30,945 nt of DNA from a virus. A program made the translations under genes and the position numbers. How positions within the stretch are numbered: the stretch's first letter is position 1; each line of letters opens with the position of its first letter. The notes beneath the pieces are model-generated. The model had not been told where the DNA came from and searched no databases. It saw only the letters and a program-made list of their open reading frames with translations. Positions 2,286-30,945 of this stretch are shown here, piece by piece. The stretch is taken from positions 1-30,945 of IMG/VR virus record IMGVR_UViG_3300012964_000041. The stretch is one strand, 5' to 3'.

Positions 2286-4544
2286 TCAGTAGCCTATACA
2301 ACTAAAGGACACAACGTCAGCGTTAGCCATGGTCCCCGTGAATGTTACTGACGCGGTCGTCGTCGCGGTTTGATTCATGAGGTTTGCGGGGGTGGTTCGG
2401 TTGTGCGCCGTGCAGGAAAACCCGTGCGAGACAGTCGTCGCAAACGTGAGAACAACGGTTCCACCGGCGCATGCCCCCGAAGCGGTAAAGGTTCCTGCGG
2501 ACGTTCCTCCGGTTTGCGTGGCGATGGCGCATGTTCCTGTTGGCGTCGGAAGCGCCCCGGTGGAAACCAGAACATTCGATGCCATCTTAGGCCCCTGGAA
2601 TGTTCCACCGAAGTTTATGTTTGTCTCCCCAGTAGACGGAACGTTTCCAACCATTTGTTGCTGTGCAGATATTGTTCCTGCAAAGTTCATTCCGCCAGTG
2701 ACATTGTAAGATACGTCATTTGCTACGATATTTGCCAATGTGACAGTGCCACCACTTATAAATTCAATACCGTATTTCTGGTTGTTGTATAGAACTCCTG
2801 ATACCTTACCAAACCTATTTCCTACCAGACTAATATTGTCAGCATTCGTAGCTGCAAATCCGTCGTATAATCCTGATCCCGCGAGAGAGCAGTGCGTGCC
2901 GACCGAACCGACCACGGATATCTCTCCGCCCTCGACAAAATAGCAGTGCTTCTGGTTATTCTGACTGCGGTGAGATGAGAAGCTGGTTTCGCTGATAGTC
3001 CCCGTTGACCCGAGATGAACCCCATGCCCTTGCATTGACGCCGTCCACGAGTCAGTGAAAAACGCGCCAACAACCTCCCCACCGGCGGCCGGATTTATGT
3101 AAATCCCATCTCCAGACGAAGTGTCAAACGCAACGCCACTAAAAAAGATCCACTTAACGGATTGCCCGTTCTGGGGGTCAATTAGCATTCCCGTCCCACA
3201 ATGGATGAAATCACTATTGAGGCCGAGCAATCCCCCATTCTGAGTGACCTCAATGCAAGCGCGTGGCTGAGGGTCTGTGCTATCTGCTATAACGCCAACA
3301 AAATATTGATCGTTGGCGGCTGGATACAACAATACTACGCCATATGTTGGCGCCGTATTCCGAATGTTAGCATTAGTAACGCGTACTCCGTTATTGGATA
3401 GGCTCATGCCGTTGAACATCCTATACATATGGATGTTATCTATGGTCATGTTGGGGCCGCCAAGCGCGTTTATACCGGCTCCGCCTGTGCGCATGAACGC
3501 GCTTGAAATATTAATATCTGATATATTCGTTAACCCAGGGCTTCCGCTTCCCTGCCATAACACATCTGAAGACGGAGAGACCGGGTTTATGAAGGTGTTT
3601 CCCCAGCCAGCCCCCGTTATCTTGTTTGGCGCCGAACCAATGGCTATTCTGTCGCTGGTATTGTACGTCCCTTTCGGAATATATACATGACCTCCCGCGG
3701 GCCAAACCGACCCGATTGCATGCGTTATTGCGGACGTGTCGTCATGCGCCGCCAACTGTGCGGTTGCCGCCGTCGTAGCGGTTGCCGCCAATGTGAGCGT
3801 CGTTGTTCCACCCCCCGCATTGATCGTTGTCACGAGCCAGTCAGCCGCCTGCGTCGCTGGCGGCGTCGATCCCAGCCAGTCCGGCGCAGTGGTCGCGGCA
3901 TAGCCGTGATCGTCCCATGAGACGACAGGGGCGCCATGAAACGTTCCGGGCAGCAATGCACGGAGAGACAGCGAGCCCGCAATATTGCCCCACACCGCGC
4001 ATCCCGCGGGCGCTGTGCCAGTCGGCGCCGTCCAGCTAACCGTGTTGTAATTTGTGGTGTTCAGCGTGGCGTTGCCGGTCGTGGTTGCCACAGTCGTGAG
4101 CGCGGCGTCGATGCCGCCGGAGTTATCGAAGCAACTCACCGTGTACGTGTAAGTGGTGGTTCCCGGTGTGCCCACATTGGCAACACCTAGGCCCGTGGGC
4201 GGGTTGAGGGCGTAGGCCGCGCCCGCGTGGTTGACGCGAACGCCCTGGCCGTTCACAAAGTCGATCGCTCCCGCCAGCGTGAGCGTCGCTGATCCCGCAG
4301 ATATCGTTCCTGTGGTGCTTGTGCTCGACCCGGACGCCCCGAAGTCCTTGACGCTGATGGGGCCGTCCTTGATATGCGCATCGATCATACGCTGGATGGC
4401 GCCAGAGCCCGTCGCCGTAAAAGTGACGTCCGTTGTAGCAGGGGCTGAAAACGTCCCATCGTCTCGGTTGAACGTGTGCTGGGCCAATGCTTGGGATGAT
4501 GCCAGCACGGCGATAAGTGCAAGAATATTTCTCGTAAACATCAT
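2286..4544 (-). CDS. tailspike-like protein: signal peptide, inserted domains, pectin-lyase-type beta-helix
   Basis: A 752-residue protein. Residues 1-21 look like a Sec signal peptide: basic start MMFTRN, hydrophobic core ILALIAVLASS, and an ALA cleavage site followed by Gln. VKDFGA at 65-70 and DDTSAITHAI at 268-277 are the two halves of the usual entry to a Pectate_lyase_3 beta-helix. They are separated here by about 200 residues, including an Fn3-like stretch (about 114-215). The helix then runs to about residue 650, with PAGGHVYIPKGTYNT and many Asn/Gly turns. The C-terminal 95 residues form a Cys/Thr-rich beta domain ending VVSFSCIGY. The likely role is binding or degrading a surface polysaccharide; catalytic residues cannot be named. 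The DNA for the helix (about 2700-3600) is visibly more AT-rich than both ends. The ATG overlaps the stop of the fibre-like gene by 4 bp. Confidence 0.75.
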   Translation of the reverse strand: MMFTRNILALIAVLASSQALAQHTFNRDDGTFSAPATTDVTFTATGSGAIQRMIDAHIKDGPISVKDFGASGSSTSTTGTISAGSATLTLAGAIDFVNGQGVRVNHAGAAYALNPPTGLGVANVGTPGTTTYTYTVSCFDNSGGIDAALTTVATTTGNATLNTTNYNTVSWTAPTGTAPAGCAVWGNIAGSLSLRALLPGTFHGAPVVSWDDHGYAATTAPDWLGSTPPATQAADWLVTTINAGGGTTTLTLAATATTAATAQLAAHDDTSAITHAIGSVWPAGGHVYIPKGTYNTSDRIAIGSAPNKITGAGWGNTFINPVSPSSDVLWQGSGSPGLTNISDINISSAFMRTGGAGINALGGPNMTIDNIHMYRMFNGMSLSNNGVRVTNANIRNTAPTYGVVLLYPAANDQYFVGVIADSTDPQPRACIEVTQNGGLLGLNSDFIHCGTGMLIDPQNGQSVKWIFFSGVAFDTSSGDGIYINPAAGGEVVGAFFTDSWTASMQGHGVHLGSTGTISETSFSSHRSQNNQKHCYFVEGGEISVVGSVGTHCSLAGSGLYDGFAATNADNISLVGNRFGKVSGVLYNNQKYGIEFISGGTVTLANIVANDVSYNVTGGMNFAGTISAQQQMVGNVPSTGETNINFGGTFQGPKMASNVLVSTGALPTPTGTCAIATQTGGTSAGTFTASGACAGGTVVLTFATTVSHGFSCTAHNRTTPANLMNQTATTTASVTFTGTMANADVVSFSCIGY

Positions 4545-5842
4545 ACAATCTCGTAGCTATATGTTCTATCTGGGTAGGCGTTCTCGGGATGGTATACCGT
4601 GAATGAACCATTACCAGGAATGACGTACAGGCTCGCGTAACTGTTTGCCGCGTGCAGTGTCGTTGATGTCAGGTTGATATGACTTGATATGGTGCAGTGA
4701 GCATCGGTGACTACTGTGGACGTGGCCGGGCTTGCCGCAAGCGTTACGGCCCCTGTGGCGGGGTATGTTTGCCAGGATGGATCAGCGCCCGGCCCGTTTG
4801 TTCTGAGCACCTGCCCGGCGGTCCCTGGAGCGAGCAGCAACCATTCTGTGGCGCCCCGATACAGGATGTCTCCGCGCCCCGGCGTGGCGGAGACCGAAAC
4901 TTCACCGGGAGTGACATAACCGTAGAGATTCCACGTCCATTCATTCGGATTGACCTTCGTCAGGACGCCCCGTGAGTAGAGGGCCGGGAACGTCAACGGC
5001 GCTCCGGCATCGATCGCCACCCCCGCTTCACCAACAAGCGTGACGTCATTCGCCCCGAAGCGCATCAGCTCCGTTTGGAATCCCACGGGGAGCGGGTCTG
5101 TCGCGTCGGCCGGGACTGTGATCGTGCGGACGCCCGCCGAACTGTCCATATAGAGCAGTGATCCACCGTGGATGACGCCTATCTGGACGCTCGACGCCTT
5201 GTAGCGGAGCGGCTTCAGAACCGGATCGACTTCGACGATCCAGTTGTGCGCGCTTATGCAACGATAGACGTAGAATGCGTATTGCACTCCGAAGCTGTGG
5301 TTTTGCCCGTAGGGGCCGATTGCGCCACCCGCTCCCGCGTTCACCGTGACCGTGCTTGTTGATACGAGATCCGCCATGTAAACCGCCACCGCGTCACCCG
5401 CCACAGCCGTAGGGGGCAGGGCGATGGAGACGGGGGCGGTTTGCCCGGTGACGACATAGAGCGTCTTGGACACAGCCGTCACGACAGACGCAGGGGTCGT
5501 GACGATTGACCAACTTCCAGGCGTCAGCGTGGGCGTCGTCAGGTCTTCGGCGCGAGGCGTGAGCGTGACGATCGATGCGCCGCTGAGGGCCAGGATGGCG
5601 CCCGTTGTCGAGCCCGTCATAAGGCGCGTCATGCTTGTTGTCGGCCCGGTGATCGTCACCACGCCCACGCCGTACTCGTGCTGGTTTTGGTCCGATATGG
5701 AGTAGCTCACGAGGTCGCCGCTCGCCACACCAGCCGCCACGAACGTGCGATAGCCGGACGTGGCGGCGACAAGGATGGCCGGACCAGTCCCCACGGTCGA
5801 GCAAACCATCTGCGCCAGGTTGAACAGTTTCGCCGCCATCAT
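4541..5842 (-). CDS. tail fibre-like / appendage protein
   Basis: A 433-residue protein. Residues 1-100 form a module I recognise from many phage fibre or appendage proteins: GYRTFVAAGVASGDLVSYSI, then MTRLMTGSTTGAILALSG, then VTLTPRAEDL. It is usually the part that attaches to the virion. The remainder is beta-rich and Gly/Thr/Val-rich, with TPGRGDILYRGATEWLLLAP near 310-330, a common fibre-tip motif. The protein ends in a short aromatic stretch (YPDRTYSYEIV). It overlaps the preceding zinc-ribbon gene and the following tailspike gene by 4 bp each. It could be the adaptor on which the tailspike is mounted. The fibre class is fairly sure; partner and receptor are unknown. Confidence 0.65.
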   Translation of the reverse strand: MMAAKLFNLAQMVCSTVGTGPAILVAATSGYRTFVAAGVASGDLVSYSISDQNQHEYGVGVVTITGPTTSMTRLMTGSTTGAILALSGASIVTLTPRAEDLTTPTLTPGSWSIVTTPASVVTAVSKTLYVVTGQTAPVSIALPPTAVAGDAVAVYMADLVSTSTVTVNAGAGGAIGPYGQNHSFGVQYAFYVYRCISAHNWIVEVDPVLKPLRYKASSVQIGVIHGGSLLYMDSSAGVRTITVPADATDPLPVGFQTELMRFGANDVTLVGEAGVAIDAGAPLTFPALYSRGVLTKVNPNEWTWNLYGYVTPGEVSVSATPGRGDILYRGATEWLLLAPGTAGQVLRTNGPGADPSWQTYPATGAVTLAASPATSTVVTDAHCTISSHINLTSTTLHAANSYASLYVIPGNGSFTVYHPENAYPDRTYSYEIV

Positions 5843-6192
5843 GAACCCCCGAGCGGAACGTTGGCCAAGGGCGAGCCGCCCAACAGATAGGAAACCCCCG
5901 CGACCGGCGCGGGCGGGTAACTCCCCGCCTCATCAATGCTGTAGAATTCCGGGCGCGGGTTAAACACCGGCGTTGGGTCCGGCGGGAGAATGATCGTTCG
6001 GAGGAATTGAGACGGTCTGTCGCGGCAATTCTCGCACACGAGAATGCGCTTGTTCTGAAGACCGGCGCCCTGGTACTGGAATTGCCAGGCTAGATCATGA
6101 TGATTGAACAGAAAGCCACACCTGTCGCACACCGCGAACGGGCGGGGGCTATCTGGATCAACCCGCGCTCTCCCGCGTGGACGATAGCTCAT
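5839..6192 (-). CDS. small zinc-ribbon phage protein (paralogue B)
   Basis: A 117-residue paralogue of the protein at 1931-2284. The cysteine pairs are at the same positions, C22/C25 (VCDRCG) and C53/C56 (LVCENCRD). Both share WQFQY, the FNPRPEFYSIDEAG region, and a YLLGGSPLANVPLGGS end. The N-termini differ (SYRPRGRARVDPDSPRP here). It overlaps the adaptor-like gene upstream and the fibre-like gene downstream by 4 bp each. The two paralogues bracket the fibre and tailspike genes, so duplication may have accompanied insertion or exchange of the appendage genes. Biochemical role unknown. Confidence 0.7.
   Translation of the reverse strand: MSYRPRGRARVDPDSPRPFAVCDRCGFLFNHHDLAWQFQYQGAGLQNKRILVCENCRDRPSQFLRTIILPPDPTPVFNPRPEFYSIDEAGSYPPAPVAGVSYLLGGSPLANVPLGGS
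5927..5957. repeat. 31-bp direct repeat, copy 2 (within zinc-ribbon paralogue B)
   Basis: Identical over 31 bp to 2019-2049, about 3.9 kb away in the same orientation. The pair flanks the fibre and tailspike genes and could serve as a recombination point for swapping them. Confidence 0.85.
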
Positions 6193-6881
6193 CTGAAATA
6201 ACCCACAAGACTAGGCGAAATGTAAATATTTACCGCTTCTTGATCTTGCTCAGCCGCCAAGATAAATTTCTTCTCGTATTGGTCTTCAAGGAGCGCAAAT
6301 CTATCAGGCGCATAGATTAAAGCCAGACGTGAGGCCAGTCCAAACGTGAATGCGTCCAAAAATCGGTAAGGCGTATCAAGCGTTTGACCACCTGCAACGT
6401 TGATGTCCTGCATCTGGCGGAATGTCTGAAGTTGCAGCGTGTATGCAAAACTGGCGTCCGGCGTCAGATAGACTGTCAGCGTTGGTTGCGGACTGGTCAG
6501 CGTGAGCGCGAACGAGCTGGGAAAACCCTGTTGCGCTTTGTTCGGAATCGCCGCGTACTCGCTCGCTGATATGCGCCCGAGTACGCGGCCAGTCACAACG
6601 GCCCCCGTGGACGTCTCAATGTACGCCACGGCGACAGAGACCGTTCGTGGCGTAAGCAGATAGCCCGATTGACCGGGTATCAGAGGGATGGACTGCGTCT
6701 CAAGGCCCCATTGATTGGGGTTTCGATTGGTGAAGTCCACCATCAACAGGTTGGCTTGAGTACTCGCATCGGCAATATGCTCCATGACAACTTGAGTTCG
6801 TCTCAATCCACACAGCGAAAACGCCGCTATAAACACGTCACTCGCGGCCGGATTGAAATTATACGTGTTGGACGTTGTCAT
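6189..6881 (-). CDS. putative neck / head-tail adaptor protein (second adaptor-like gene)
   Basis: A 230-residue protein. The N-terminal helix region (FNPAASDVFIAAFSLCGLRR, then IADASTQANLLMVDF) resembles the start of adaptor and connector proteins. A beta-rich middle includes LETQSIPLIPGQSGYLLTPR. The C-terminal part has DTPYRFLDAFTFGLASRLAL and IYAPDRFALLEDQYEKKF, then ILAAEQDQEAVNIYISPS. This fold order (helices, sheet, helices) and the DAFTFGLASRLAL...P.R motif recur in phage genes placed next to portal or neck proteins. A tail-accessory or adaptor role is inferred from this and from position; the exact family is not certain. The stop overlaps the ATG of the zinc-ribbon gene by 4 bp. Confidence 0.55.
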   Translation of the reverse strand: MTTSNTYNFNPAASDVFIAAFSLCGLRRTQVVMEHIADASTQANLLMVDFTNRNPNQWGLETQSIPLIPGQSGYLLTPRTVSVAVAYIETSTGAVVTGRVLGRISASEYAAIPNKAQQGFPSSFALTLTSPQPTLTVYLTPDASFAYTLQLQTFRQMQDINVAGGQTLDTPYRFLDAFTFGLASRLALIYAPDRFALLEDQYEKKFILAAEQDQEAVNIYISPSLVGYFR

Positions 6882-6893
6882 GGAGCCTCTTAA

Positions 6894-7397
6894 TTACACG
6901 ATAGAAATGCGCTGGCGGTTCATATGCAACCGGGTGGCGCTAATGGCGTAACCAACAGGCTGCACCACGTTCGTTGGCGTTGCGGGCGGGGTTGCAGTGA
7001 TCGCCCCCGCTGTCCCGGCGTCAAGATAGTACTCCGCTCCGATCGTCAAACCGGACTTAGCGGTGTTTTCCCCCTGAAGATACACGGTCACCGGGTTGCC
7101 GCTCGTCCCGCCCACAAGGCAAAAGCCCTGAGCGATGGTTCCGACAGCGTCGGCCTTGGCCAGCTCGGCCACGCCAGCGGCGGTCAGGTACACGAAGTCC
7201 CCATTGGCGATGGTGGTCGTTCCAACGTTGACGATAACCGTAGCGGTTGCGCCATCCGGGAACATGGAGGCGTCGATAAGGCCGGTCGTGTCAGCAAGAG
7301 CCACGATCTTACCGGCGTTGCCCGCGCCGCCAACCTGGACGGCGGACGTGCCGGTGAGGACACCGCTCGTTAGGGCAATGTATTTATCTGCGGCCAT
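6894..7397 (-). CDS. small beta-rich virion protein (decoration- or fibre-tip-like)
   Basis: A 167-residue Gly/Ala/Thr-rich protein with no charged clusters. An AAGGAG ribosome site stands 9 bp before the ATG, supporting this start. The C-terminal half (NGDFVYLTAAGVAEL; then YLQGENTAKSGLTIGAEYYL; then PTNVVQPVGYAISATRLHM) is a compact beta module common in phage decoration and appendage proteins. The next gene upstream ends in a module with the same spacing of GL, Y/W-L, P and LG/VG residues. Exact role unknown; a virion surface protein is the best guess. Confidence 0.55.
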   Translation of the reverse strand: MAADKYIALTSGVLTGTSAVQVGGAGNAGKIVALADTTGLIDASMFPDGATATVIVNVGTTTIANGDFVYLTAAGVAELAKADAVGTIAQGFCLVGGTSGNPVTVYLQGENTAKSGLTIGAEYYLDAGTAGAITATPPATPTNVVQPVGYAISATRLHMNRQRISIV

Positions 7398-7415
7398 AGT
7401 GTGTCGCTCCTTGTT

Positions 7416-7928
7416 TTATATGATTATCGGTTGCCCGATATCTATGTACATCCTGGAACTGTTACTAACCCAGCCGAGACTTACAAACACCCCTGTTGTC
7501 GGCAAAACCTGCGTGATCGTGCCTGTGGCCCCAAGCCACATGTGCCCCGGTAGTAGTCCGCTCGTCACGGCTATTTCACCGTGACCAATTATCTCCACAT
7601 TCGTAGAGATTGCGTTGTCATCCACTGTCATCCCAAGTATTGTACTGCATTTGGTGATGTCAGTTGGATCTGCTTTCATGCATGTTACACCGTCAACATC
7701 ATAAACGATGCGGAAATGCTCGATGTGTTCCCCTGCGATACGGTATGACGCGAGGTCGTTCCCGATAATTAGCGGGAATGATCCGGTTGCCCCCGTAACG
7801 TACATGACTCCTGTCGGCGTGCCGTTGCTGTCCACGATTTCGATAAATCCGCCCGACAGAGAGGTTCCCGCTCCGGCGGCCAGCTCGGCCGCTGTCATGC
7901 GGTAAACGACTGGATAACCCGTGTTCAT
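7416..7928 (-). CDS. small beta-rich virion protein sharing a C-terminal module with its neighbour
   Basis: The start is taken at the ATG at 7928 (MNTGYPVVYRMTAAELAAGA) because AGGGAGG lies just upstream. The frame remains open further 5' but that part is an overlap with the previous gene. The 170-residue product is beta-rich. Its C-terminus (SGLLPGHMWLGATGTITQVL, then TGVFVSLGWVSNSSRMYIDI, then GQPIII) aligns by eye with the end of the 167-residue protein downstream. TGYPVVYRMTAAELAAG looks like a virion attachment or fibre N-terminus, but I do not recognise a named family. Confidence 0.5.
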   Translation of the reverse strand: MNTGYPVVYRMTAAELAAGAGTSLSGGFIEIVDSNGTPTGVMYVTGATGSFPLIIGNDLASYRIAGEHIEHFRIVYDVDGVTCMKADPTDITKCSTILGMTVDDNAISTNVEIIGHGEIAVTSGLLPGHMWLGATGTITQVLPTTGVFVSLGWVSNSSRMYIDIGQPIII

Positions 7929-7939
7929 GGCGCCCTCCC

Positions 7940-9277
7940 TTATTGTAGCACAAGTTCGACGTTCTGAAGGACGCCGCCAGATTGCCATGTGAGCAACAGG
8001 GCGTCACCCGCCCCAATGACCACCGGCGTTGAAAAGACCAGACGCTCAAGAGGGAGGCTTGAGCTTGACTGGACGCCAAGCGGGAACGTGACCAGGGCGC
8101 CGAGTCCGGTGTTGATGTTCAGAAGCTGCACGACAGTGTCAGCCAGCGGGGGGACGCCTGCCTCAAACGTGAGGGCGCTATAGGTGGCGGGGGCCAGATG
8201 GATGACCGCCCCCGAACGATTGAGCGAGCGTGCGCGCGCTCTCGCCAGCGGTGGGACTTGCGGGGATATGTTCGATACGGAGGTCACCCGCGCGCGCATG
8301 ATCGCGCCGGTCAGCGTGACGGGACCGCCGTCGCTTTCGCTTTGGATAACCAACGACATGATGTCCCAATCGGCGGGTTGACTCCATCGCACATGAAAGA
8401 GTTCAGGCGGATCAACGCCCAGCGTCGTTGGGCCGTTCTTGAGCCAGTCTGACGGGTCGTCTACGCCCGTAAAGGCGCGCCACGTCCCGCTAACTGAGTA
8501 GTATTCCAGGGCAATATCTCGGACATTTGGCGTCTTCCGGTGGACTTCCACGTCCATTCCAGGCCCGGCTGCGGGAAATACGAATATTTCGGAGCTTTCC
8601 ACCATCCATTCAACATTCGGTGTCGCTCCGAATGTTCCATCACTCATGGCGGCGTTCCAAATAGCCGTGTCATCACCAAAGTCTATTCCGGCGTCCATCA
8701 TGTACGTCATGGACATTTTTGGGGAGGTTGTGGCCGAAATGAAGCCCACGGGGCGAATGACGATCCAGCGCCGGGCGGCGATGAAACCGGGAACGGGGGA
8801 CCATTCCACGCGCGGCACGGCAGGGTCCGTCCACGTGATCGAATACGTTCCGGGGCCGCTCCGAAACCCGTTCGAGCCGTCCACAAGGCCGGTTAACACG
8901 CGATTTGCGCTCGTCCCATCCGTTGAATCAAGCACTTCCAAACCGCCCCCGACCCACACGCCGGGAGTGTCTATCGTCAGTCGAATCTCATGTGTCGGCT
9001 CATCTGAGGCCAAATATACCGCGTCACCAGCGGAAAATGTGGCGTTCGTCCCCCATGGCAAGAAAGAGTTAGCGACGCCCGACGTGCATTCCGTCGTGTA
9101 GTCCGTAAAGTCTACATGCCCGCTCGATAAGTCTAGATTGAAGGCATAGACGGCCTCTGTTGACTCTATACTGCTATACATTGACGTGAATAGAGACTGT
9201 CCGATTACGCCTCGTACAATTCCATCACCGCTACAACCGGCATGTTCGGATATCTCCGCCATTGTGACCGTAAACAC
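7940..9277 (-). CDS. unknown virion-associated beta-rich protein
   Basis: A 445-residue protein of no family I recognise. The start is a GTG at 9277, preceded at 8 bp by AGGAGG; the later ATG (codon 6) has no comparable site. It is rich in beta-forming and aromatic residues, for example NRVLTGLVDGSNGFRSGPGT, RRWIVIRPVGFISATTSPKM and DDPSDWLKNGPTTLG. This suggests several stacked beta-sandwich domains, as in receptor-binding or baseplate-like proteins. It lies among appendage-type genes in the late block, with the LamG-like gene 18 bp upstream. No signal peptide is visible, unlike the next two genes upstream. Confidence 0.5.
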   Translation of the reverse strand: MFTVTMAEISEHAGCSGDGIVRGVIGQSLFTSMYSSIESTEAVYAFNLDLSSGHVDFTDYTTECTSGVANSFLPWGTNATFSAGDAVYLASDEPTHEIRLTIDTPGVWVGGGLEVLDSTDGTSANRVLTGLVDGSNGFRSGPGTYSITWTDPAVPRVEWSPVPGFIAARRWIVIRPVGFISATTSPKMSMTYMMDAGIDFGDDTAIWNAAMSDGTFGATPNVEWMVESSEIFVFPAAGPGMDVEVHRKTPNVRDIALEYYSVSGTWRAFTGVDDPSDWLKNGPTTLGVDPPELFHVRWSQPADWDIMSLVIQSESDGGPVTLTGAIMRARVTSVSNISPQVPPLARARARSLNRSGAVIHLAPATYSALTFEAGVPPLADTVVQLLNINTGLGALVTFPLGVQSSSSLPLERLVFSTPVVIGAGDALLLTWQSGGVLQNVELVLQ

Positions 9278-9295
9278 AGCCGCAACCTCCTGTAA

Positions 9296-10129
9296 TCATA
9301 AGCCTATTTTGCCACGCAAAAAAGCGTCTAGACTAGTCAGTTCCCCTGCTGACAGTGACTGGCCAATGACAACCTGATATACGTTAGATGTGACCATGTA
9401 TCCACCTCCCGCCCAGCCGCAAAGACCTGTAGCGGGCGATGTAGAATTGGCCGTGAGTCCAGCCGTTTGTGACGCCACAGGCCCCACTATAGCTGTTCCA
9501 TTCTTATAGAGCGTAGTTGTTGCGCCTGAATAATCGTGCACGGCAATATATGACTGTAATGTCGTGTCCGTCGCGCCAACTGCCACAACAGAGAATGCAT
9601 CGCCGGTTATGCGCCTCCCAGAAAACTCATAACCCACGCCATTGTTAAAATAAGAATACTCGATTAGTTCCCCGCCTGCGGGGGTTTGCGCGCTCCAGAT
9701 CATGCCCGTGGCCGTTGTTTGCAGAGCGCTTCCGGCAAACAACAGGGCGGCGTTTTGAACGAGGCTTGTCGTTCCGCCGAGTAATTGTTTCGAGCCGTTG
9801 CATGCCAGATACGGGCGGCTCGCGCCGTCAAGCGTCAACACCGGGCACGCGGCGGCGTTGTTCTGAGTCAGATGGTAGCCCCCGCCCGACTTGTCGTTGA
9901 GCGCGCAGACGTTTTGCCCGGCGGCTGTTACCGGCGTTGTCTTCGCGGCGTCCTGCCACATCGTTGCAAAGTCAGTCGGATCGTACCAGGCGTAAGGGGC
10001 GGTCAGACTGGCGGGGGTCCACGCGCCGGTGGAGTGCCCGACTCCGAGCAGCATTTGCTGGCCTATGGCCTCACCGGCCCAAACCGCCAGTAGCGCCACG
10101 ATGCACGCCAGTGTGACCCGCCACATCAT
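9296..10129 (-). CDS. LamG/concanavalin-like phage protein with N-terminal signal peptide
   Basis: A 277-residue protein. Residues 1-23 read as a signal peptide: MMWR, the hydrophobic core VTLACIVALLAVWAG, then EAIG before QQ. The mature part has APYAWYDPTDFATMWQDAAK and TTPVTAAGQNVCALNDKSGG, then YHLTQ. This is a recurring introduction to LamG-like jelly-roll domains in phage and surface proteins. The rest is a sandwich-like beta pattern with TTLYKNGTAIVGPV and the closing YQVVIGQSLSAGELTSLDAF. Several cysteines (NVCAL, AACPV, LACNG, GLCGW) fit an exported, disulfide-bonded protein. Probably carbohydrate-binding; ligand unknown. It begins one base after the stop of the previous gene. Confidence 0.6.
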   Translation of the reverse strand: MMWRVTLACIVALLAVWAGEAIGQQMLLGVGHSTGAWTPASLTAPYAWYDPTDFATMWQDAAKTTPVTAAGQNVCALNDKSGGGYHLTQNNAAACPVLTLDGASRPYLACNGSKQLLGGTTSLVQNAALLFAGSALQTTATGMIWSAQTPAGGELIEYSYFNNGVGYEFSGRRITGDAFSVVAVGATDTTLQSYIAVHDYSGATTTLYKNGTAIVGPVASQTAGLTANSTSPATGLCGWAGGGYMVTSNVYQVVIGQSLSAGELTSLDAFLRGKIGL

Positions 10130-10130
10130 C

Positions 10131-11384
10131 TCATCTGTACCCCAGGTTGATCGCTACGCCTGTGGCAGCGCTCGCTGTGTCCGCGTCGGCAATTCCGCCC
10201 GTCAGGCAAAAGCCTATGCCGCTCGTGAACGCAAACCCTGGAAACGGGTTGACGGTCAGCCCGGCGCCCGTGGCCGACGCCGGGACAGGGTAGGTCTGGA
10301 CAGGTGTGTCCGTTCCGCATGTTGGGGCGGTCGCCTTATCGTAGATCTTGAGGTAATAGATCGTCGCCGTCGTGTTTACCGCGGTAATGCTGTGGAGTGT
10401 CCCGGCCGCTGCCTTCACGTTCGTAGCGTTCGTACTGGCCGTGCTCAAATAGTGCACCGGAGTCGCCGCTTGGGCCGTAATGAGCCACGGCGTTGTGTTG
10501 GCGGTGTTGCCGGGCTGGACGGTCCATGTTCCCGACTGTGTCGCCGCAACCGTATTGTTAGGGCTGACCGCGACCACAAGCGCGGGATCTGTCGCAGTCG
10601 CTGCCGTGCTCGCGGCTTTGACCGCCGCTGTATTCCCACCGGCGGAAGGCGAGACCAGCCACGGCGTTGTGTTGGCGGTATTGCCGGGCTGGACGGTCCA
10701 CGTCCCCGACTGTGTGACGCCTGGAAGCGTTGTCACCGTGCCAATATTCCACGTTCCCGACTGTGTCGCGGCAACCGTATATGTGCTGTCCGAAGACACG
10801 GCGACGCGGAGCGAACCGGTTCCCGCCACGCCAAGGCCGGTGAGCGGGGTTGCGCCATTGATGCCGGTGAGGTTGGTGGAGCTTCCCGCGCTGACTGGGA
10901 TTGTTCCGAACGCCGGAAGGCCCGCGCCGCCGGAGATATCGAGCGTGGCGGTTGAGCTTGCGGTAATGGCGGCAATGTATGTGCCAGCGCCCGGCGCGTC
11001 CGCGATGCAGATGCCGGACGGCAATTTTATGTCCGTGACCGCCGCTGTAACGCCCGCGCCGCCAAATTTGTAATAGATGGGAACAGAGCCGCTGTTACAG
11101 AGGATTGCCGATGTCCCGGAGGGGAGGGCCACGTTGCCCGTGCTCGTGGTGACGTTCAATACCGCCTGCGTCGATGGCGTGAACGGCGCAATGGTCGCCG
11201 TAGCCGACACAACCGCCGCAGTGCAGAGCTGGCCCGTCGTGTCCTGCGTGCAACTGCTAATGTTGCCCGCGCTGTATGTGATGCCCGCGCACGAAGCCAC
11301 GACACGACAGGCGGTGGATGTCTGAGCGCTGGCGGGGGTTGCCGCCAGAAGGCTTAAGGCTGTGAAAGTGGCGCGTTTCAACAT
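10131..11384 (-). CDS. repeat-containing phage protein with N-terminal signal peptide
   Basis: A 417-residue protein. It opens with an apparent signal peptide: MLKRATFTALSLLAATPASA, then Gln as the first mature residue. Four cysteines follow within about 40 residues (TACRVVASCAG, SSCTQD, QLCTAA), as expected for a disulfide-bonded exported segment. The middle contains imperfect repeats of the TQSGTW type: AATQSGTWNIGTVTTLPG, VTQSGTWTVQPGNTANTTPW, and the latter again after about 38 residues. TQSGTW repeats are common in phage appendage or surface proteins. The C-terminal part is a beta domain (IYYLKIYDKATAPTCG; then FPGFAFTSGIGFCLTGGIAD). The ATG shares one base with the stop of the previous gene. 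Function unknown. Confidence 0.55.
   Translation of the reverse strand: MLKRATFTALSLLAATPASAQTSTACRVVASCAGITYSAGNISSCTQDTTGQLCTAAVVSATATIAPFTPSTQAVLNVTTSTGNVALPSGTSAILCNSGSVPIYYKFGGAGVTAAVTDIKLPSGICIADAPGAGTYIAAITASSTATLDISGGAGLPAFGTIPVSAGSSTNLTGINGATPLTGLGVAGTGSLRVAVSSDSTYTVAATQSGTWNIGTVTTLPGVTQSGTWTVQPGNTANTTPWLVSPSAGGNTAAVKAASTAATATDPALVVAVSPNNTVAATQSGTWTVQPGNTANTTPWLITAQAATPVHYLSTASTNATNVKAAAGTLHSITAVNTTATIYYLKIYDKATAPTCGTDTPVQTYPVPASATGAGLTVNPFPGFAFTSGIGFCLTGGIADADTASAATGVAINLGYR
10483..10541. repeat. 59-bp imperfect direct repeat, copy 1
   Basis: Nearly identical (three mismatches seen by eye) to 10657-10715 in the same orientation. Both encode the QSGTWTVQPGNTANTTPWL unit on the minus strand. 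Confidence 0.8.
10657..10715. repeat. 59-bp imperfect direct repeat, copy 2
   Basis: Second copy of the segment at 10483-10541, offset by 174 bp (58 codons), so the reading frame is preserved. This is consistent with internal duplication in the encoded protein. Confidence 0.8.
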
Positions 11385-12043
11385 CAGATACTCGGTGAGG
11401 CGTTTTGCGACACGGTCGCCTTGAGCGAACCTGTCCCGGAATTGAGAGTGACCTGCACAAACGCGGGTGTAGCGGGAAACGCCGTCTGGGCGCTGCTTGA
11501 CATGCCCGTCAGGTTTGGATCTGGAAGCCAGGACATGGCCGCGAGGCCGATTGGCGTCCCAAAGCCAAACAGCCCGTTCGGGTTATCCTGACTGCTCCGC
11601 ACGGTGTAATCCACCGTCCCGGTCGCAATGACATGAACGAGCGTTGGTCCGAAGCCGAACGGGTCGAGGCTGATGGGGCGGGAATCCGCCACGCCATTTG
11701 TCCCCACCGTGACCGCACCGGCCGTGGCGGCGTTTGTGGCGATGCGGGTTATGGTGGCGAACGACACGCCGAAATCAGCCGCGCCCACATTGGCCCCCGC
11801 CACGCTGGCTTGCAGGGGTTGCCCGCTCCAGTCCGTGCCATAGGCCGTGAAGGTCGCGGTGCTGTCGTTGCCTGCGCTCGTGATGATGATGCGGCGTGGC
11901 GTATCCAGCACCGCCACGCCGCCCACGACAAGCGCTCCGTTCAAAGTGAGATTTCCAGCCGCGAGGGGGGTCTGAGACAACGCAATGTTGTTCGCCGCTC
12001 CGCTCGTGAGAGGCCCCACCGTCACTTGAATGAGTCTGCTCAT
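11384..12043 (-). CDS. unknown beta-rich virion protein
   Basis: A 219-residue Ala/Gly/Thr/Val-rich protein. The start is well supported by AAGGGGAG 5 bp before the ATG. The sequence (MSRLIQVTVGPLTSGAANNI, then RRIIITSAGNDSTATFTAYG, then FGFGPTLVHVIATGTVDYTV) has the alternating pattern of a beta-sandwich structural protein. The GNDS...F.. and DYTV.SSQD motifs recur in hypothetical proteins near phage capsid genes. It is probably a minor capsid, decoration or appendage component. It is not secretion-type: no signal peptide and no cysteine. Its TGA overlaps the next ATG by one base. No named family recognised. Confidence 0.5.
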   Translation of the reverse strand: MSRLIQVTVGPLTSGAANNIALSQTPLAAGNLTLNGALVVGGVAVLDTPRRIIITSAGNDSTATFTAYGTDWSGQPLQASVAGANVGAADFGVSFATITRIATNAATAGAVTVGTNGVADSRPISLDPFGFGPTLVHVIATGTVDYTVRSSQDNPNGLFGFGTPIGLAAMSWLPDPNLTGMSSSAQTAFPATPAFVQVTLNSGTGSLKATVSQNASPSI

Positions 12044-13347: not shown

Positions 13348-14277
13348 TTACGATGTCGGCATAGAACCGTATAGACACCTTGGATCGTTTGAGAAAAAAC
13401 CAGCTCGCTGATAACCTTTGACGAGCAAATTGTCCGTGACAAAATCCACGTGCATGTCTAATTCAAACGGTACACGGTCTATATGGATGAGACCTTCGAC
13501 ATCGGTTTTGATGAACCATGCGAAATTGCTTGTGAAGTAGTCGAATACTTCGAAGTCGTGCAGGCCGCCCGACAGGGAGTGAATAGCGTTCACGTCGTTG
13601 TCGGCTGTTCCTGGCCGGAGGTCCGTCTTGATCAAACGGATTGCCACGTCTTCCAGGGCGACAGGGACACAGAGCGTCTTGCCGCGCGCCCTGACCTTCA
13701 ATCCCGCTTCGTTGACGAAACCGGAGCGGATAGCCTTCAGTCCCGCAATAAGCGTGGCCTCGTTCAGATCGACGTCAACCGCCGGGCGGTTTGACCACGA
13801 GCCGCCCACGAACGGCGATGTTTCCGTGAGCGGATGAGCATTCGACAACAGGGGCTGACCGTCGCCGCCAAGACTGGCGTTGTACGTTCCGGCCGAGTTG
13901 AAGACGTTCGCCGCCTGGATTTCCCAGTAGTCCGCAAAGCTCTTTGCAAGACCAAGATTCATCGGGTTGAAGTCCGACTTGTACAGGTTATCGTCAATCG
14001 CCTTGCGAGTGATTGCGTAGCCAAGACCGGCTTCAATAGGTTCCATGTTGTACATCCAACGCTGACCGGCGTTGTTGTCAAACAGGGTTTGCGCACCTTC
14101 ATCTTTCAATGCGGCAAGCTGCAAATAGCGAACCTGAGCAGTACGCTCAATTTGCATTTTCGACGTGATCGTTCGGAAAACCCGCTTCCACTGCGGCTCG
14201 ATATTTCGATATTGCCCGGTGATCGCGGCAAGACCCGGCAGAAGCAGGTCTCTTTCTGCGGCTAAATTAATTGCCAT
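13348..14277 (-). CDS. major capsid protein, Mu gpT-like HK97 fold
   Basis: A 309-residue protein that forms the icosahedral shell. It begins MAINLAAERDLLLPGLAAIT. The family-like features are: ERTAQVRYLQLAALKDEGAQ (residues 44-63); the capsid-typical GLGYAITRKAIDDNLYKSDF (84-103); DGQPLLSNAHPLTET; and LKVRARGKTLCVPVALEDVA. LSNAHPLT and the length (usual 300-350) point to the Mu-like major head subunit gpT class. It follows a decoration-like gene after 3 bp, and the scaffold region and co-chaperonin genes lie upstream, as expected for a capsid module. Residues 6-30 are partly repeated in a small ORF at 18157-18495. Confidence 0.88.
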   Translation of the reverse strand: MAINLAAERDLLLPGLAAITGQYRNIEPQWKRVFRTITSKMQIERTAQVRYLQLAALKDEGAQTLFDNNAGQRWMYNMEPIEAGLGYAITRKAIDDNLYKSDFNPMNLGLAKSFADYWEIQAANVFNSAGTYNASLGGDGQPLLSNAHPLTETSPFVGGSWSNRPAVDVDLNEATLIAGLKAIRSGFVNEAGLKVRARGKTLCVPVALEDVAIRLIKTDLRPGTADNDVNAIHSLSGGLHDFEVFDYFTSNFAWFIKTDVEGLIHIDRVPFELDMHVDFVTDNLLVKGYQRAGFFSNDPRCLYGSMPTS

Positions 14278-16877: not shown

Positions 16878-17405
16878 TCAATAGATCAAATCTGGATTAG
16901 AGATGCGCCCCTTGATGCAAGTGTCCGGTATTAAACGGCAATTTACACCGTTAAACTTGCACATCCATGTATCTGATGTTCTGTAGTAAAGCCAGTCTCC
17001 GAGTTTTGGGGTGTTCTTTTCAACTCTAACAAGGTAATCTTGCTCATTCTCCCCCTTACGCTTCGTATGATATGGGAAAGAACCCCTGAACAGGAAAGCG
17101 TCTTCCCCTGCCTTGAGCATCACTCCAACCTTGCCTTGGAAAATGCTTTCGCGAAGGTTTGTATCGGGACGAATGATGCCGCCTTTGGTCTTTTCCGGTT
17201 CGATGTACGTTGCAATCAGCACATCAGAGCCAAATACTTCCAGCTCACTAAGAACAGGACTTAGTAACTCTAGAAAATACGCGCGCTGATCTTCTGCGGA
17301 TGCAATGTCGCGAATGTCAATATGCCTCTGAGGCGACTGCGCCTCTTTGGTTGGCTGAGGGTACTTGTCACTTATTGCGTCTAGTGTACTCTTCAACATC
17401 ATCAC
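16878..17405 (-). CDS. GroES-like co-chaperonin (Cpn10), phage type
   Basis: A 175-residue protein whose middle (about 58-100) reads FGSDVLIATYIEPEKTKGGI, then IRPDTNLRESIFQGKVGVML, then KAG. This aligns with GroES: DRVIV, the mobile loop with GGI, and the strand after the loop, GEVLAVG. A later segment (LGDWLYYRTSDTWMCKFNGV, then NCRLIPDTCIKGRI) matches the GDWV...NG..CRI.DD..I end of phage GroES-like proteins. It probably partners with host GroEL to fold the capsid protein, as T4 gp31 does. It is longer than cellular GroES (about 97 residues) through a 55-residue N-terminal extension and an inserted loop near 105-130. The start could be GTG 17405, ATG 17402 or ATG 17399; AGG sits 5 bp before the last. 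It overlaps the preceding small gene by 32-38 bp. Confidence 0.8.
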   Translation of the reverse strand: MMMLKSTLDAISDKYPQPTKEAQSPQRHIDIRDIASAEDQRAYFLELLSPVLSELEVFGSDVLIATYIEPEKTKGGIIRPDTNLRESIFQGKVGVMLKAGEDAFLFRGSFPYHTKRKGENEQDYLVRVEKNTPKLGDWLYYRTSDTWMCKFNGVNCRLIPDTCIKGRISNPDLIY

Positions 17406-24374: not shown

Positions 24375-25271
24375 TTGAAACATCTTGATGTAAAGAGGAT
24401 GATTTACAACAGTACTGAAATTCTCGAAAAGTGGAATAAAGCCAAGCCGTTAAGACTTGTCGCGGCAAAGGCGCGCCTGTTGAAATTAACTAAAAACAAA
24501 GCGCGTTATGTCGAAGTTCAGCGGCGAACAGGTGTCCCGTGGTGGCTGATAATGTGTCTGCACGAGCGTGAAAGCTCAGGCGACATGACCACCTATCTCG
24601 GCAACGGAGAACCGCTAGACCGAGTAACCAACCTCGTCCCAAAGGGGCGGGGACCGTTCAAGACCTTCGAAGACGGGGCGGTTGACGCCCTTGTCCATGA
24701 GGGGTTCCATAAAATAACGGATTGGTCTATACCCCGCGCTCTTTGGGCAGCGGAAGTGTTCAATGGGGCAGGGTATAGAAATCGAGGGGTTCCAAGCCCG
24801 TATGTATGGGCGGGAACAAATCAGTATAGTACAGGGAAATACACTTCGGATGGTCACTATGACGCCGGAGCTACTGACAAACAACTGGGGATTGCTGTCA
24901 TGTTTCAGGGTCTAATCTCTCTCGGCATGCTTGCCGTGAACGCTCTAACCACGCCCAGCACATCGGGGGCGGGGGTTGTTGTGTCTCCGACAACCACGGG
25001 AACGAATTTCGTCGCCACTATCATTGGCGCGGCGCTGACTGTGCTGGGCGCGCAATCGTTCGGCGCGGATGCAATCCACACGATTGCCGCGCTTGGCGGC
25101 CCCATCGCCATCCTGGCCGGTGTACTTAACCAACTCCACATCACGGGCGGGTCGAATGCCAACACGATTGCGCAGCTCGTGGCGCTGACTGAGCAGGTCA
25201 CGCAGATGGCCGCCGAGATGGACAAGGCGAAAGCTCCGGCGCCGGTTGCGGATGCCGTCCCGGCAAGCTAA
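24375..25271 (+). CDS. endolysin with C-terminal hydrophobic (holin-like) region
   Basis: A 298-residue protein. The catalytic part (residues 45-175) has VQRRTGVPWWLIMCLHERES, YLGNGEPLDRVTNLVPKGRG, and LWAAEVFNGAGYRNRGVPSP followed by YVWAGTNQYSTGKYTSDGHY. This is the pattern of phage/rhizobial lysozyme-type proteins, where Glu in LHERE (E64 or E66) is the likely catalytic acid. It cleaves peptidoglycan at the end of infection. Residues 175-260 contain three hydrophobic segments (ISLGMLAVNAL; FVATIIGAALTVLGAQSFG; TIAALGGPIAILAGVLNQLH), so a membrane or holin-like domain seems fused to the enzyme. A TTG start at 24375 has AAAGG 6 bp upstream; the ATG at 24399 is the alternative. First gene of the plus-strand lysis cassette. 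Confidence 0.75.
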   Translation: MKHLDVKRMIYNSTEILEKWNKAKPLRLVAAKARLLKLTKNKARYVEVQRRTGVPWWLIMCLHERESSGDMTTYLGNGEPLDRVTNLVPKGRGPFKTFEDGAVDALVHEGFHKITDWSIPRALWAAEVFNGAGYRNRGVPSPYVWAGTNQYSTGKYTSDGHYDAGATDKQLGIAVMFQGLISLGMLAVNALTTPSTSGAGVVVSPTTTGTNFVATIIGAALTVLGAQSFGADAIHTIAALGGPIAILAGVLNQLHITGGSNANTIAQLVALTEQVTQMAAEMDKAKAPAPVADAVPAS

Positions 25272-29130: not shown

Positions 29131-29346
29131 TTACAATCTCTCCGAATAATATTCGTCCCATGCGGCTTCCCACTCTTTTTCATTAATATCGTGGCAAATC
29201 TTGCAGAGATCACATTCGCCTGTTGATCTGGCGGGCATGGTGTGAATACGCCGGAAAACAAATTTCCCACAACAAGAGCACACGCCCCAATTGCTCCATT
29301 CCTTCCAAATGCGGCGTAAAATCCAGTAAATACGGCTGTGTCTCAC
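29131..29346 (-). CDS. small zinc-binding protein upstream of DNA polymerase
   Basis: I use a GTG start at 29346, with GGAGG 8 bp upstream and a 4-bp overlap with the previous stop; an ATG at 29361 is also in frame. The 71-residue product begins VRHSRIYWILRRIWKEW and has two CxxC pairs (VCSCCGKF and CDLCKICHD), a zinc-ribbon layout. It ends EKEWEAAWDEYYSERL. The stop is immediately before the polymerase ATG. Possibly a nucleic-acid-binding accessory; no family recognised. Confidence 0.55.
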   Translation of the reverse strand: MRHSRIYWILRRIWKEWSNWGVCSCCGKFVFRRIHTMPARSTGECDLCKICHDINEKEWEAAWDEYYSERL

Positions 29347-29723
29347 GACTTGAGCCTCCATGTCTTGGGCATGGCGCGCCCGTAGGCAACTTCCCAGACG
29401 CTTTCTTCGGTTACTATCCGGGCGGCAACGGCCTTGGCGTAGTCCCGGAGCGAACCGGATGACCGCGCCTTGTCCGCCAGTTTGCGGGCGGCTTTTACAG
29501 CCGTACTGTTCTCAACAGCCGCCTGCGCCGTGAGACGCGCTTTGTGATTGTCGCGCGCCCAAACCTTGCAACGCCAGTCGATACGGATGTCAGGGGTGTT
29601 CGCGGAGCGGCTGTTAGCCGCTTCAATCATGTCCCACGCGCGTTCGTAAGAGGTTTTCGCCTCCGCCCGGCATTGGCCGAGATGGCGGCGCACGTCCGCC
29701 TCATTGTCTATAAAAATCATCAT
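29343..29723 (-). CDS. unknown helical protein
   Basis: The start is the ATG at 29723 (MMIFIDNEADVRRHLGQCRA), with GGAGG 9 bp upstream. The frame is open much further 5' only because the repeat DNA there lacks stops. The 126-residue product is helical, Ala/Arg/Lys-rich (SYERAWDMIEAANSRS; KAARKLADKARSSGSLRDYA; KAVAARIVTEESVWEVAYGR). It ends AMPKTWRLKS. The stop overlaps the next gene's GTG. No family recognised. Confidence 0.5.
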   Translation of the reverse strand: MMIFIDNEADVRRHLGQCRAEAKTSYERAWDMIEAANSRSANTPDIRIDWRCKVWARDNHKARLTAQAAVENSTAVKAARKLADKARSSGSLRDYAKAVAARIVTEESVWEVAYGRAMPKTWRLKS

Positions 29724-29749
29724 CACTTTCCGCCTCCACAGAAAGAAGC

Positions 29750-29771
29750 GCCGCCCGACGTATCGGGCGGC
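29750..29771 (-). terminator. GC hairpin after the (Gly-X)n gene
   Basis: On the minus strand GCCGCCCGA pairs with TCGGGCGGC (9 bp, 4-base loop; plus coordinates 29750-29758 and 29763-29771), 7 bases after the (Gly-X)n stop. The following bases (GCTTCTTTC) are moderately T-rich. A terminator or processing hairpin is likely. Confidence 0.6.
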
Positions 29772-29778
29772 TTCCTGC

Positions 29779-30111
29779 TCAGCCGTCGCCGTGGCCGTAG
29801 CCGCTGCCGCTGCCGTTGCCGCTGCCGTGGCCACTGCCGTCGCCGTCGCCGTCGCCGTAGCCGTGGCCGTAGCCGCTGCCGCTGCCGTTGCCGTTGCCGT
29901 CGCCGTCGCCGTGGCCGCTGCCGCTGCCGTTGCCACTGCCGTGGCCACTGCCGTCGCCGTCGCCGTCGCCGTAGCCGTGGCCGTAGCCGTGGCCGTAGCC
30001 GCTGCCGCTGCCGTTGCCGTTGCCGTGGCCGTAGCCGCTGCCGCTGCCGTTGCCGCTGCCGTCGCCGTGGCCACTGCCGTGGCCACGGCAGTGGCCGTCG
30101 TTTTTATCCAT
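29779..30111 (-). CDS. (Gly-X)n low-complexity protein
   Basis: The ATG at 30111 gives 110 residues: MDKNDGHCRGHGSGHGDG, then alternating Gly and X to the TGA at 29779-29781. X is only His, Asp, Asn, Tyr or Ser, because the second codon of each pair is NAC or AGC. The DNA is a run of imperfect GCCGTN/GCCGCT hexamers (29780-30100 on the plus strand), so other frames are also open. I prefer this one because it has an ATG preceded by GGAGG (11 bp) and flanking hairpins on both sides. Similar Gly-X stretches exist in other phage hypothetical proteins. Probably disordered; its use is unknown. Confidence 0.6.
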   Translation of the reverse strand: MDKNDGHCRGHGSGHGDGSGNGSGSGYGHGNGNGSGSGYGHGYGHGYGDGDGDGSGHGSGNGSGSGHGDGDGNGNGSGSGYGHGYGDGDGDGSGHGSGNGSGSGYGHGDG

Positions 30112-30136
30112 TGTTCGTCCGTCCTCCGAAAATGTT

Positions 30137-30162
30137 AAGCCGCCCGGTTTTCCGGGCGGCTT
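30137..30162 (-). terminator. GC hairpin between the DUF6948-like and (Gly-X)n genes
   Basis: AAGCCGCCCGG (30137-30147) pairs perfectly over 11 bp with CCGGGCGGCTT (30152-30162) around a T4 loop (A4 on the minus strand). It lies just after the previous stop (TAG at 30167). The minus-strand sequence beyond it (AACATTTTC) is only partly T-rich. It may terminate or stabilise the upstream transcript. Confidence 0.6.
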
Positions 30163-30166
30163 TCCG

Positions 30167-30475
30167 CTACTTCGATTCGTTGGTCGCTGCTTCAATGCTG
30201 GCGATGGCCTCAGAACTGGCGGGGATAAACTCTATGCAGTCCTCAATGTACTGTTCTGGCACATTAATGTGGACCTGGGATTTATCCGTGTCGAGCCCGT
30301 TAATTGCCAACTCTGACAGGCTGCGCGCCCCATACCAATACCGGATGCGCCGCACGTCGCACAGTGTTGCGCGGCTGAACATGGCGCCATTTTCAACCGA
30401 TTTAACGGTTGCGAGATGTACGCCGGAAGCATAAGTGCGGACAATACAACGCTTTCCGATTGCGGGATGTGTCAT
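30167..30475 (-). CDS. DUF6948-like phage protein
   Basis: A 102-residue protein. IGKRCIVRTYASGVHLATVK, then RIRYWYGARSLSELAINGLD and then IEDCIEFIPASSEAIASIEA match a pattern I recall in phage proteins annotated DUF6948. That pattern is G..V.VRTYSAGVH.G.L...., ARRIWYW.GA.SL...A..G, and E.....II...EA. Function unknown; likely an early or middle gene in this phage. It follows the Pro/Gln-rich gene and a GC hairpin, and is followed by another hairpin. The family label comes from memory only. Confidence 0.6.
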   Translation of the reverse strand: MTHPAIGKRCIVRTYASGVHLATVKSVENGAMFSRATLCDVRRIRYWYGARSLSELAINGLDTDKSQVHINVPEQYIEDCIEFIPASSEAIASIEAATNESK

Positions 30476-30537: not shown

Positions 30538-30945
30538 TTACTGCGCCTCTCCGGTTGCAAAACCCACGAGCGGAGAACTACCAGGGGATACAATCTCCCC
30601 CGAGTCGCTGGCTCCACTCGCTGTGGCAGGTGTAGGGGCAGGGGCTTCTGTCCCTGCGGCCGGGGCAACCGGGGCGCCCACATCTGGGAGCCTCGGCGGA
30701 GTAAAACCCGTGTCAGAACGATGGGCAGTCGTCACATGTCCATCGCCCATCACTCCACTCGAACCCGCCGGTAAGTGTCCGGGCGATTCCGCAATAGGCG
30801 CAACTCCGTTTCCCGGCGCACTCTGCTGCTGCGCCGGAGGGGCGTAGGCCTGCTGCTGCGCCGGAGGGGCGTAGGCCTGCTGCTGCGCCGGAGGGGCGTA
30901 GGCCTGCTGCTGCGCCGGAGGGGCGTAGGCCTGCTGCTGCGCCGG
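30538..30945 (-). CDS. Pro/Ala/Gln-rich protein, C-terminal part only (5' end cut by window)
   Basis: The minus-strand frame is open from the right edge to the TAA at 30538 (135 residues). The first 45 or so residues are repeats of PPAQQQAYA, encoded by the 27-bp array. Then come SAPGNGVAPIAESPGHLPAG, HVTTAHRSDTGFTPPRLPDV and a Pro/Ala/Thr tail ending VGFATGEAQ. It is low-complexity and probably disordered; the folded domain, if any, lies outside the window. Similar tails occur on single-strand DNA-binding and virion proteins, but I cannot assign it. Its place upstream of the polymerase suggests a replication or early gene. Confidence 0.55.
   Translation of the reverse strand, partial: PAQQQAYAPPAQQQAYAPPAQQQAYAPPAQQQAYAPPAQQQSAPGNGVAPIAESPGHLPAGSSGVMGDGHVTTAHRSDTGFTPPRLPDVGAPVAPAAGTEAPAPTPATASGASDSGEIVSPGSSPLVGFATGEAQ
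30823..30945. repeat. perfect 27-bp tandem repeat, about 4.5 copies, at the window edge
   Basis: Units at 30823-30849, 30850-30876, 30877-30903 and 30904-30930, and a partial at 30931-30945, are identical. Each encodes one PPAQQQAYA unit (9 residues) on the minus strand. The array runs off the right edge, so its real copy number is unknown. Confidence 0.9.

Follow-up and report, generated by a model that had tools for sequence, protein, structure and literature searches.

The stretch of DNA analyzed here (the window) comes from an uncultivated tailed phage and spans a whole IMG/VR record, 30,945 bases long; its late gene block encodes three proteins, here called P1, P2 and P3, that begin with Sec-type signal peptides. 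By the usual view, tailed phages assemble entirely inside the cytoplasm. Our analysis suggests that P1-P3 are exported, disulfide-bonded accessory appendage proteins that act on or bind glycans, a reading to which we assign a probability of about 0.58; export as such is likely and is well supported by cysteine evidence in relatives. What carries this reading at the level of sequence are the signal-peptide features, the cysteine pairing linked to signal peptides in two domain families, the cassette structure of the genes and the dispensability of the P3-P2 pair.

Signal peptides of P1, P2 and P3

TerL, portal, capsid and tail genes form a single minus-strand block in the window. The three genes and their parts are as follows.

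2286..4544, minus strand: P1, 752 amino acids; signal peptide and a pectate-lyase-type (right-handed β-helix) tailspike-like protein; 10 mature cysteines
4482..4544, minus strand: P1 signal peptide, residues 1-21; predicted AxA cleavage before Gln
2673..3746, minus strand: P1 lyase/tailspike-like region, residues 267-624, from tblastn against phages
9296..10129, minus strand: P2, 277 amino acids; signal peptide and a LamG/concanavalin-like phage domain; 4 mature cysteines (C75, C95, C110, C237)
10061..10129, minus strand: P2 signal peptide, residues 1-23; cleavage position uncertain
10131..11384, minus strand: P3, 417 amino acids; signal peptide, cysteine-rich N-terminal part, QSGTWTVQPGN repeats and C-terminal β-sandwich domain (predicted); 8 mature cysteines
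11325..11384, minus strand: P3 signal peptide, residues 1-20; predicted ASA cleavage before Gln
10137..10454, minus strand: P3 C-terminal domain with the diagnostic Cys pair C356 and C393

To call signal peptides, we trained a scorer of our own on 39 known signal peptides of E. coli; at a score of 8 it reached a leave-one-out sensitivity of 90% and a false-positive rate of 0.23% on 6616 internal-Met fragments. The original prediction, made from the sequence alone, had named three proteins with Sec-type signal peptides, and it was borne out: the open reading frames lie at the coordinates it gave, P1, P2 and P3 score 9.4, 8.3 and 9.5, and only these 3 of 29 window genes have such a peptide. The other 26 genes tested score at most 5.3, including 7940-9277 and 11384-12043, which had rightly been listed as lacking one. 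The N-termini (MMFTRNILALIAVLASSQALA followed by Q in P1, MMWRVTLACIVALLAVWAGEAIG followed by QQ in P2 and MLKRATFTALSLLAATPASA followed by Q in P3) all have a basic n-region, an uncharged hydrophobic h-region and small residues at -3 and -1. The earlier description of a basic start, a hydrophobic core and an Ala/Gly-type site followed by Gln thus fits all three, except that the exact site in P2 is ambiguous (AIG before Q by eye, VWA before G by the scorer). The mature parts contain no further transmembrane segment (maximum KD19 1.28) and no lipobox (no Cys at +1), and the signal peptide of P3 is retained in the diverged orthologues at loci L002, L003 and L004.

It is most improbable that these signal peptides reflect chance or wrong start sites. 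Such an explanation can point to the simplicity of the scorer and to its few false positives among relatives, but the chance of at least 3 of the 29 genes passing is 4e-5, the starts are tightly coupled to the preceding stop, and both the signal peptides kept in diverged orthologues and the cysteine evidence speak against it.

Cysteine pairing accompanies the signal peptide

The mature parts had also been described as rich in paired cysteines, and the counts agree: P1, P2 and P3 hold 10, 4 and 8, all even, at a density of 1.6% versus 0.6% in the other late proteins (p 0.003). An excess of even cysteine counts is a prediction of periplasmic disulfide formation and is independent of the features used by the signal-peptide scorer. 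Among all loci fetched (about 340), the ratio of even to odd counts was 61:9 in signal-peptide proteins (n=70) versus 781:1001 in the others (n=1782; p 2e-13), and it was 41:8 versus 761:958 once proteins with the P3 domain were left out (p 3e-8).

P3 has 267 relatives in IMG/VR, most of which have the C-terminal domain alone in common with it, and 170 classifiable distinct copies of this domain were compared. Copies with the Cys pair (P3 positions 356 and 393) carried a signal peptide in 41 cases and lacked it in 13, against 6 and 110 for the other copies (automatic calls, p 1e-21); Val and Ala stand at the pair positions in copies without a signal peptide. Many of the 13 Cys-pair copies lacking a called signal peptide have one by eye, either from a start further along or with a score slightly below the cut-off. 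Twelve low-scoring Cys-pair rows were rescued manually, and because this was done in knowledge of their Cys state, the automatic counts serve as our main figures. The association was also seen when we omitted the scan whose search pattern required cysteine (13/4 for the Cys pair versus 5/101 for the rest) and after clustering at 60% identity (24/4 versus 4/44, p 8e-12), and it was robust to other thresholds and start limits.

A second domain family gave a similar picture. Relatives of P2 surfaced only with a three-sequence profile; they form a phage family that aligned over its whole length, with the motif WYDPSD..TMFQDAAGTTPVTA..Q, and its LamG/ConA name was recognized by eye. In the exported copies (in the window, L002/L003 and L004), four sites hold cysteines; the sequences there in about 20 non-exported relatives are VG, RP, FDG and IGRRGG.

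Domain matches and the proposed course of events

Residues 267-624 of P1 match phage tail fibres and lyase superfamily proteins (E 5e-9, tblastn against phages). About 25 residues separate its signal peptide from the neck motif, with no known docking domain seen there. The C-terminal domain of P3 is predicted to be a β-sandwich (AlphaFold2 model, predicted local distance difference test [pLDDT] score 83) with weak matches to the carbohydrate-binding modules CBM35/36/6 (best PDB match E 0.09, TM score 0.43-0.46). Searches of Pfam and PHROGs with P1-P3 gave no useful family (for P1, no Pfam match at E 0.1), PDB sequence searches with P1 and with P2 gave no match, and IMG/VR searched with P1 alone and P2 alone gave no close relatives.

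Because of the tail-fibre/lyase match of P1 and the CBM-like matches of P3, we infer a glycan-active accessory role for these proteins. Actual export and cleavage, disulfide bonds and release at lysis are likewise inferred. P1, P2 and P3 would be made late, in the operon shared with head and tail, exported by the host Sec system, cleaved by signal peptidase I and folded with disulfide bonds in the periplasm. Their appendage domains would be a lyase-type β-helix (P1), a LamG-like lectin (P2) and a CBM-like β-sandwich (P3), with the signal peptide replacing a virion-anchoring N-terminus. Eventually, the proteins would probably build up in the envelope, be freed at lysis and cut or bind surface polysaccharide.

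Cassettes and the P3-P2 insertion site

The ATG of P1 and of P3 overlaps the stop of the preceding gene and that of P2 directly follows the preceding stop, so P1-P3 are taken to belong to the late operon. Three further genes define their setting.

11384..12043, minus strand: conserved late gene with no signal peptide; flanks the P3-P2 insertion site on one side
7940..9277, minus strand: conserved late gene with no signal peptide; flanks the P3-P2 insertion site on the other side
13348..14277, minus strand: major capsid protein (phrog_371), which puts the P1-P3 block among the structural genes

Within the window's own lineage, L002/L003 and L004 carry the P3-P2 pair, but L083, L089, L090 and L091 lack it at this site and have only 19-29 bases between the flanking genes. 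Because it is missing there in close relatives, the pair is an accessory, dispensable insert. At the same site L082 (13432-14835) carries a different gene, of about 467 amino acids and without a signal peptide, which indicates a variable cassette position.

Signal peptides also occur in the neighbors of Cys-pair genes. The downstream genes +1 and +2 have one in 14/33 and 13/30 cases, compared with 7/95 and 1/77 beside other copies of the P3 domain and 2/472 far from those copies. Neighbors in larger cassettes carry Ig, fn3, pectin-lyase or propeller-type domains. Upstream stand genes for portal, capsid, head-tail adaptor and terminase proteins, which come from several unrelated families, and therefore the cassettes adjoin structural modules in several lineages of phages. 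The P3 domain occurs in seven cultured phages with neither the signal peptide nor the Cys pair, and three further queries of the exported type (two P3-type proteins plus a P3-type domain) matched only cultured phages lacking both traits. Judged by these comparisons, the matched cultured phages carry only non-exported versions of the domains, and similar cassettes occur in many other uncultivated phages. The open-licence papers searched contained no description of such exported-appendage cassettes; one study took the absence of signal peptides in variable lectin proteins as a sign that they originate from phages (PMC6199706).

Exported proteins could also have two other roles. P1-P3, exported and disulfide-bonded, could bind particles from outside after lysis, as appendages added outside the cytoplasm. 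They sit in a structural operon, domain relatives without signal peptides adjoin tail and late genes of cultured phages, and the N-termini of non-exported P2 relatives are other and varied; however, the existence of close relatives without P3-P2 means that the pair is not needed for virions in general, and no docking partner for P1-P3 was identified. We regard this attachment as conceivable but doubtful. The same holds for the broader proposal of an uncultivated tailed-phage class with extracytoplasmic maturation, in which disulfide-bearing appendages would be exported, folded in the periplasm and joined to particles outside or after lysis, while cultured relatives would make these domains in the cytoplasm. 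It seems unlikely that P1-P3 are sent to the infected cell's envelope in order to block receptors or to keep out other phages. The cassette is indeed patchy and accessory, and a precedent exists in the outer-membrane protein Lom of lambda, whose gene lies between those for tail spike and tail fibre (PMC12309495), but mature P1-P3 have no outer-membrane barrel, lipobox or membrane anchor, and expression together with the late structural genes would be late for exclusion. A free glycan-active protein is favored over both post-lysis attachment to virions and receptor masking. The original prediction had offered depolymerases or lectins, receptor blocking and outside assembly side by side; all are compatible with the domain likenesses of P1-P3, which do not decide among them.

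Signal-peptide-like N-termini of megatrons

Export is not the only fate of such N-termini. Cryo-electron microscopy of RcGTA and roseophage R4C assigns the megatron N-terminus to the baseplate of the virion, as an iris and a helix for penetration (PMC7296036, PMC10276861), and megatron-type tail-tip proteins from phages of Paracoccus, Sinorhizobium and Rhizobium reach 7.6-10.9 by the scorer used here. The N-termini of P1-P3 might likewise be membrane-inserting segments that stay on the virion, similar to the RcGTA-type iris/penetration domain. However, a second hydrophobic segment and, in most cases, an odd number of cysteines distinguish megatrons from P1-P3, which have neither, blastp between the two groups gave a chance-level match (E 0.12), and the signal-peptide-linked Cys pair would be left unexplained; we consider this slightly less likely even than receptor blocking. 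Nevertheless, because the megatron N-terminus sits in the baseplate, a signal-peptide-like N-terminus on a tail protein is no proof of export. The step from signal peptide to export in the original prediction was therefore unsafe as a premise by itself, and it is the cysteine evidence in relatives that sustains it. Its remark on similar proteins in rhizobial phages was right for megatron tail-tip proteins, which are not homologous to P1-P3; a search of rhizobial phage records with P1-P3 gave no match.

Signal-peptide-scoring megatron-type tail-tip proteins were found in cultured Paracoccus, Sinorhizobium, Rhizobium, Mesorhizobium and Synechococcus phages. In megatrons of cultured rhizobial, Paracoccus and cyanobacterial phages, the signal-peptide-like segment ends in AxA just before the iris helix (L353 36327-41894; L352 28443-32696; L355 5869-8664; L356 5866-9333; L357 5866-8547; L358 5866-9117; L359 5917-9135), and the megatron-type gp19 of Paracoccus phage Shpa begins directly at the iris helix. 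Small proteins encoded just before the megatron gene (L353 35125-35322 and 35641-35898, L356 4970-5284) have twin-arginine-like signals (MKRRRFFG, MKRRGFLG, MKRRSFLA).

Weighing of the evidence

Several observations count against exported glycan-active proteins. The signal-peptide calls rest on a home-made scorer, and signal-peptide-like N-termini exist on tail-tip proteins whose place of action is the virion (PMC7296036). The Cys pair and signal peptide are clustered on the domain tree of P3, with at least 6 Cys-state changes, few of them well supported, and a test for many independent gains on this tree had only 2 usable pairs on supported branches and gave no significance. Because the trait is clustered, the association does not represent many independent events; the Cys-pair domains appear to be mainly one old exported lineage that survived wide divergence. 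The exported P2 copies are three close relatives and amount to one event, so the P2 cysteine gain counts once, and the AlphaFold2 model of P2 failed (pLDDT 46). P1 has no close relative, and its export case therefore rests on its own sequence; its catalytic residues were not identified and its cleavage of polysaccharide is putative. Finally, the CBM-like fold matches of the P3 domain are weak (best E 0.09).

If the reading is true, exported disulfide-bearing appendage cassettes in several lineages would imply a secreted glycan-attack stage or assembly on the outside. It would also change the annotation of receptor-binding and depolymerase genes in soil and water viromes, because expression in a reducing cytoplasm could misfold such proteins.

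Other features of the window

Two paralogous 117-amino-acid proteins with a CxxC...CxxC zinc-ribbon pattern (1931-2284 and 5839-6192, both minus strand) each adjoin a phrog_2941/phrog_12985-type gene, a duplicated adaptor-like module of the tail block that is kept in relatives. Inside the head module, 16878-17405 (minus strand) weakly matches phage co-chaperonin GroES (phrog_3188, E 1e-5), and 24375-25271 (plus strand, opposite to the late block) probably encodes a lysis enzyme with hydrophobic C-terminal segments. The region 29343-30195 is highly repetitive with several frames open (Ala/Thr, Gly/His and Arg/Cys repeats) and an ambiguous coding strand; a second repeat (PAQQQAYAP, 30713-30945) runs off the contig end. 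Relatives in genome collections were mostly contigs of metagenome-assembled genomes, which pointed to no clear host.

Comparison with known systems

The tail fibre of Escherichia phage Ptacy1479 and the pectate-lyase-type gp54 of Pseudomonas phage MR4 align to residues 267-624 of P1 at 25-31% identity. P1 shares the VKDFGA motif and the late gene position with tailspikes such as MR4 gp54, but Ptacy1479 fibre and MR4 gp54 have no signal peptide (scores -1.6 and -2.0), whereas P1 has one plus 10 cysteines, its signal peptide occupying the place of the other N-termini in these two proteins. The domain of P2 is that of Pseudomonas phage Skulduggery gp6 and other LamG-like phage proteins with WYDPSD..TMFQDAAGTTPVTA, which lack both the signal peptide and, at aligned positions, the four cysteines of P2. 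Similarly, the P3 C-terminal domain is common to proteins of Caulobacter phages KSC (gp046), Cr30 and S2B (gp004) and is also found in Octadecabacter DB virus 2 gp15 and in Synechococcus S-SRP01, at 35-45% identity, and all of these proteins lack a signal peptide and have Val/Ala at the positions of the Cys pair.

RcGTA-type megatrons of rhizobial and Paracoccus phages resemble P1-P3 in being late tail proteins whose N-terminus looks like a signal peptide and ends in AxA; unlike P1-P3, to which they are non-homologous, they have a second hydrophobic helix and mostly odd cysteines and are integral components of the tail tip. Host Sec signal peptides are also used by the endolysin Lys44 of Oenococcus phage fOg44 and by lambda Lom (PMC6116005, PMC12309495), but the former is a lysis enzyme and the latter an outer-membrane protein, and neither consists of appendage-type domains in a multi-gene cassette.

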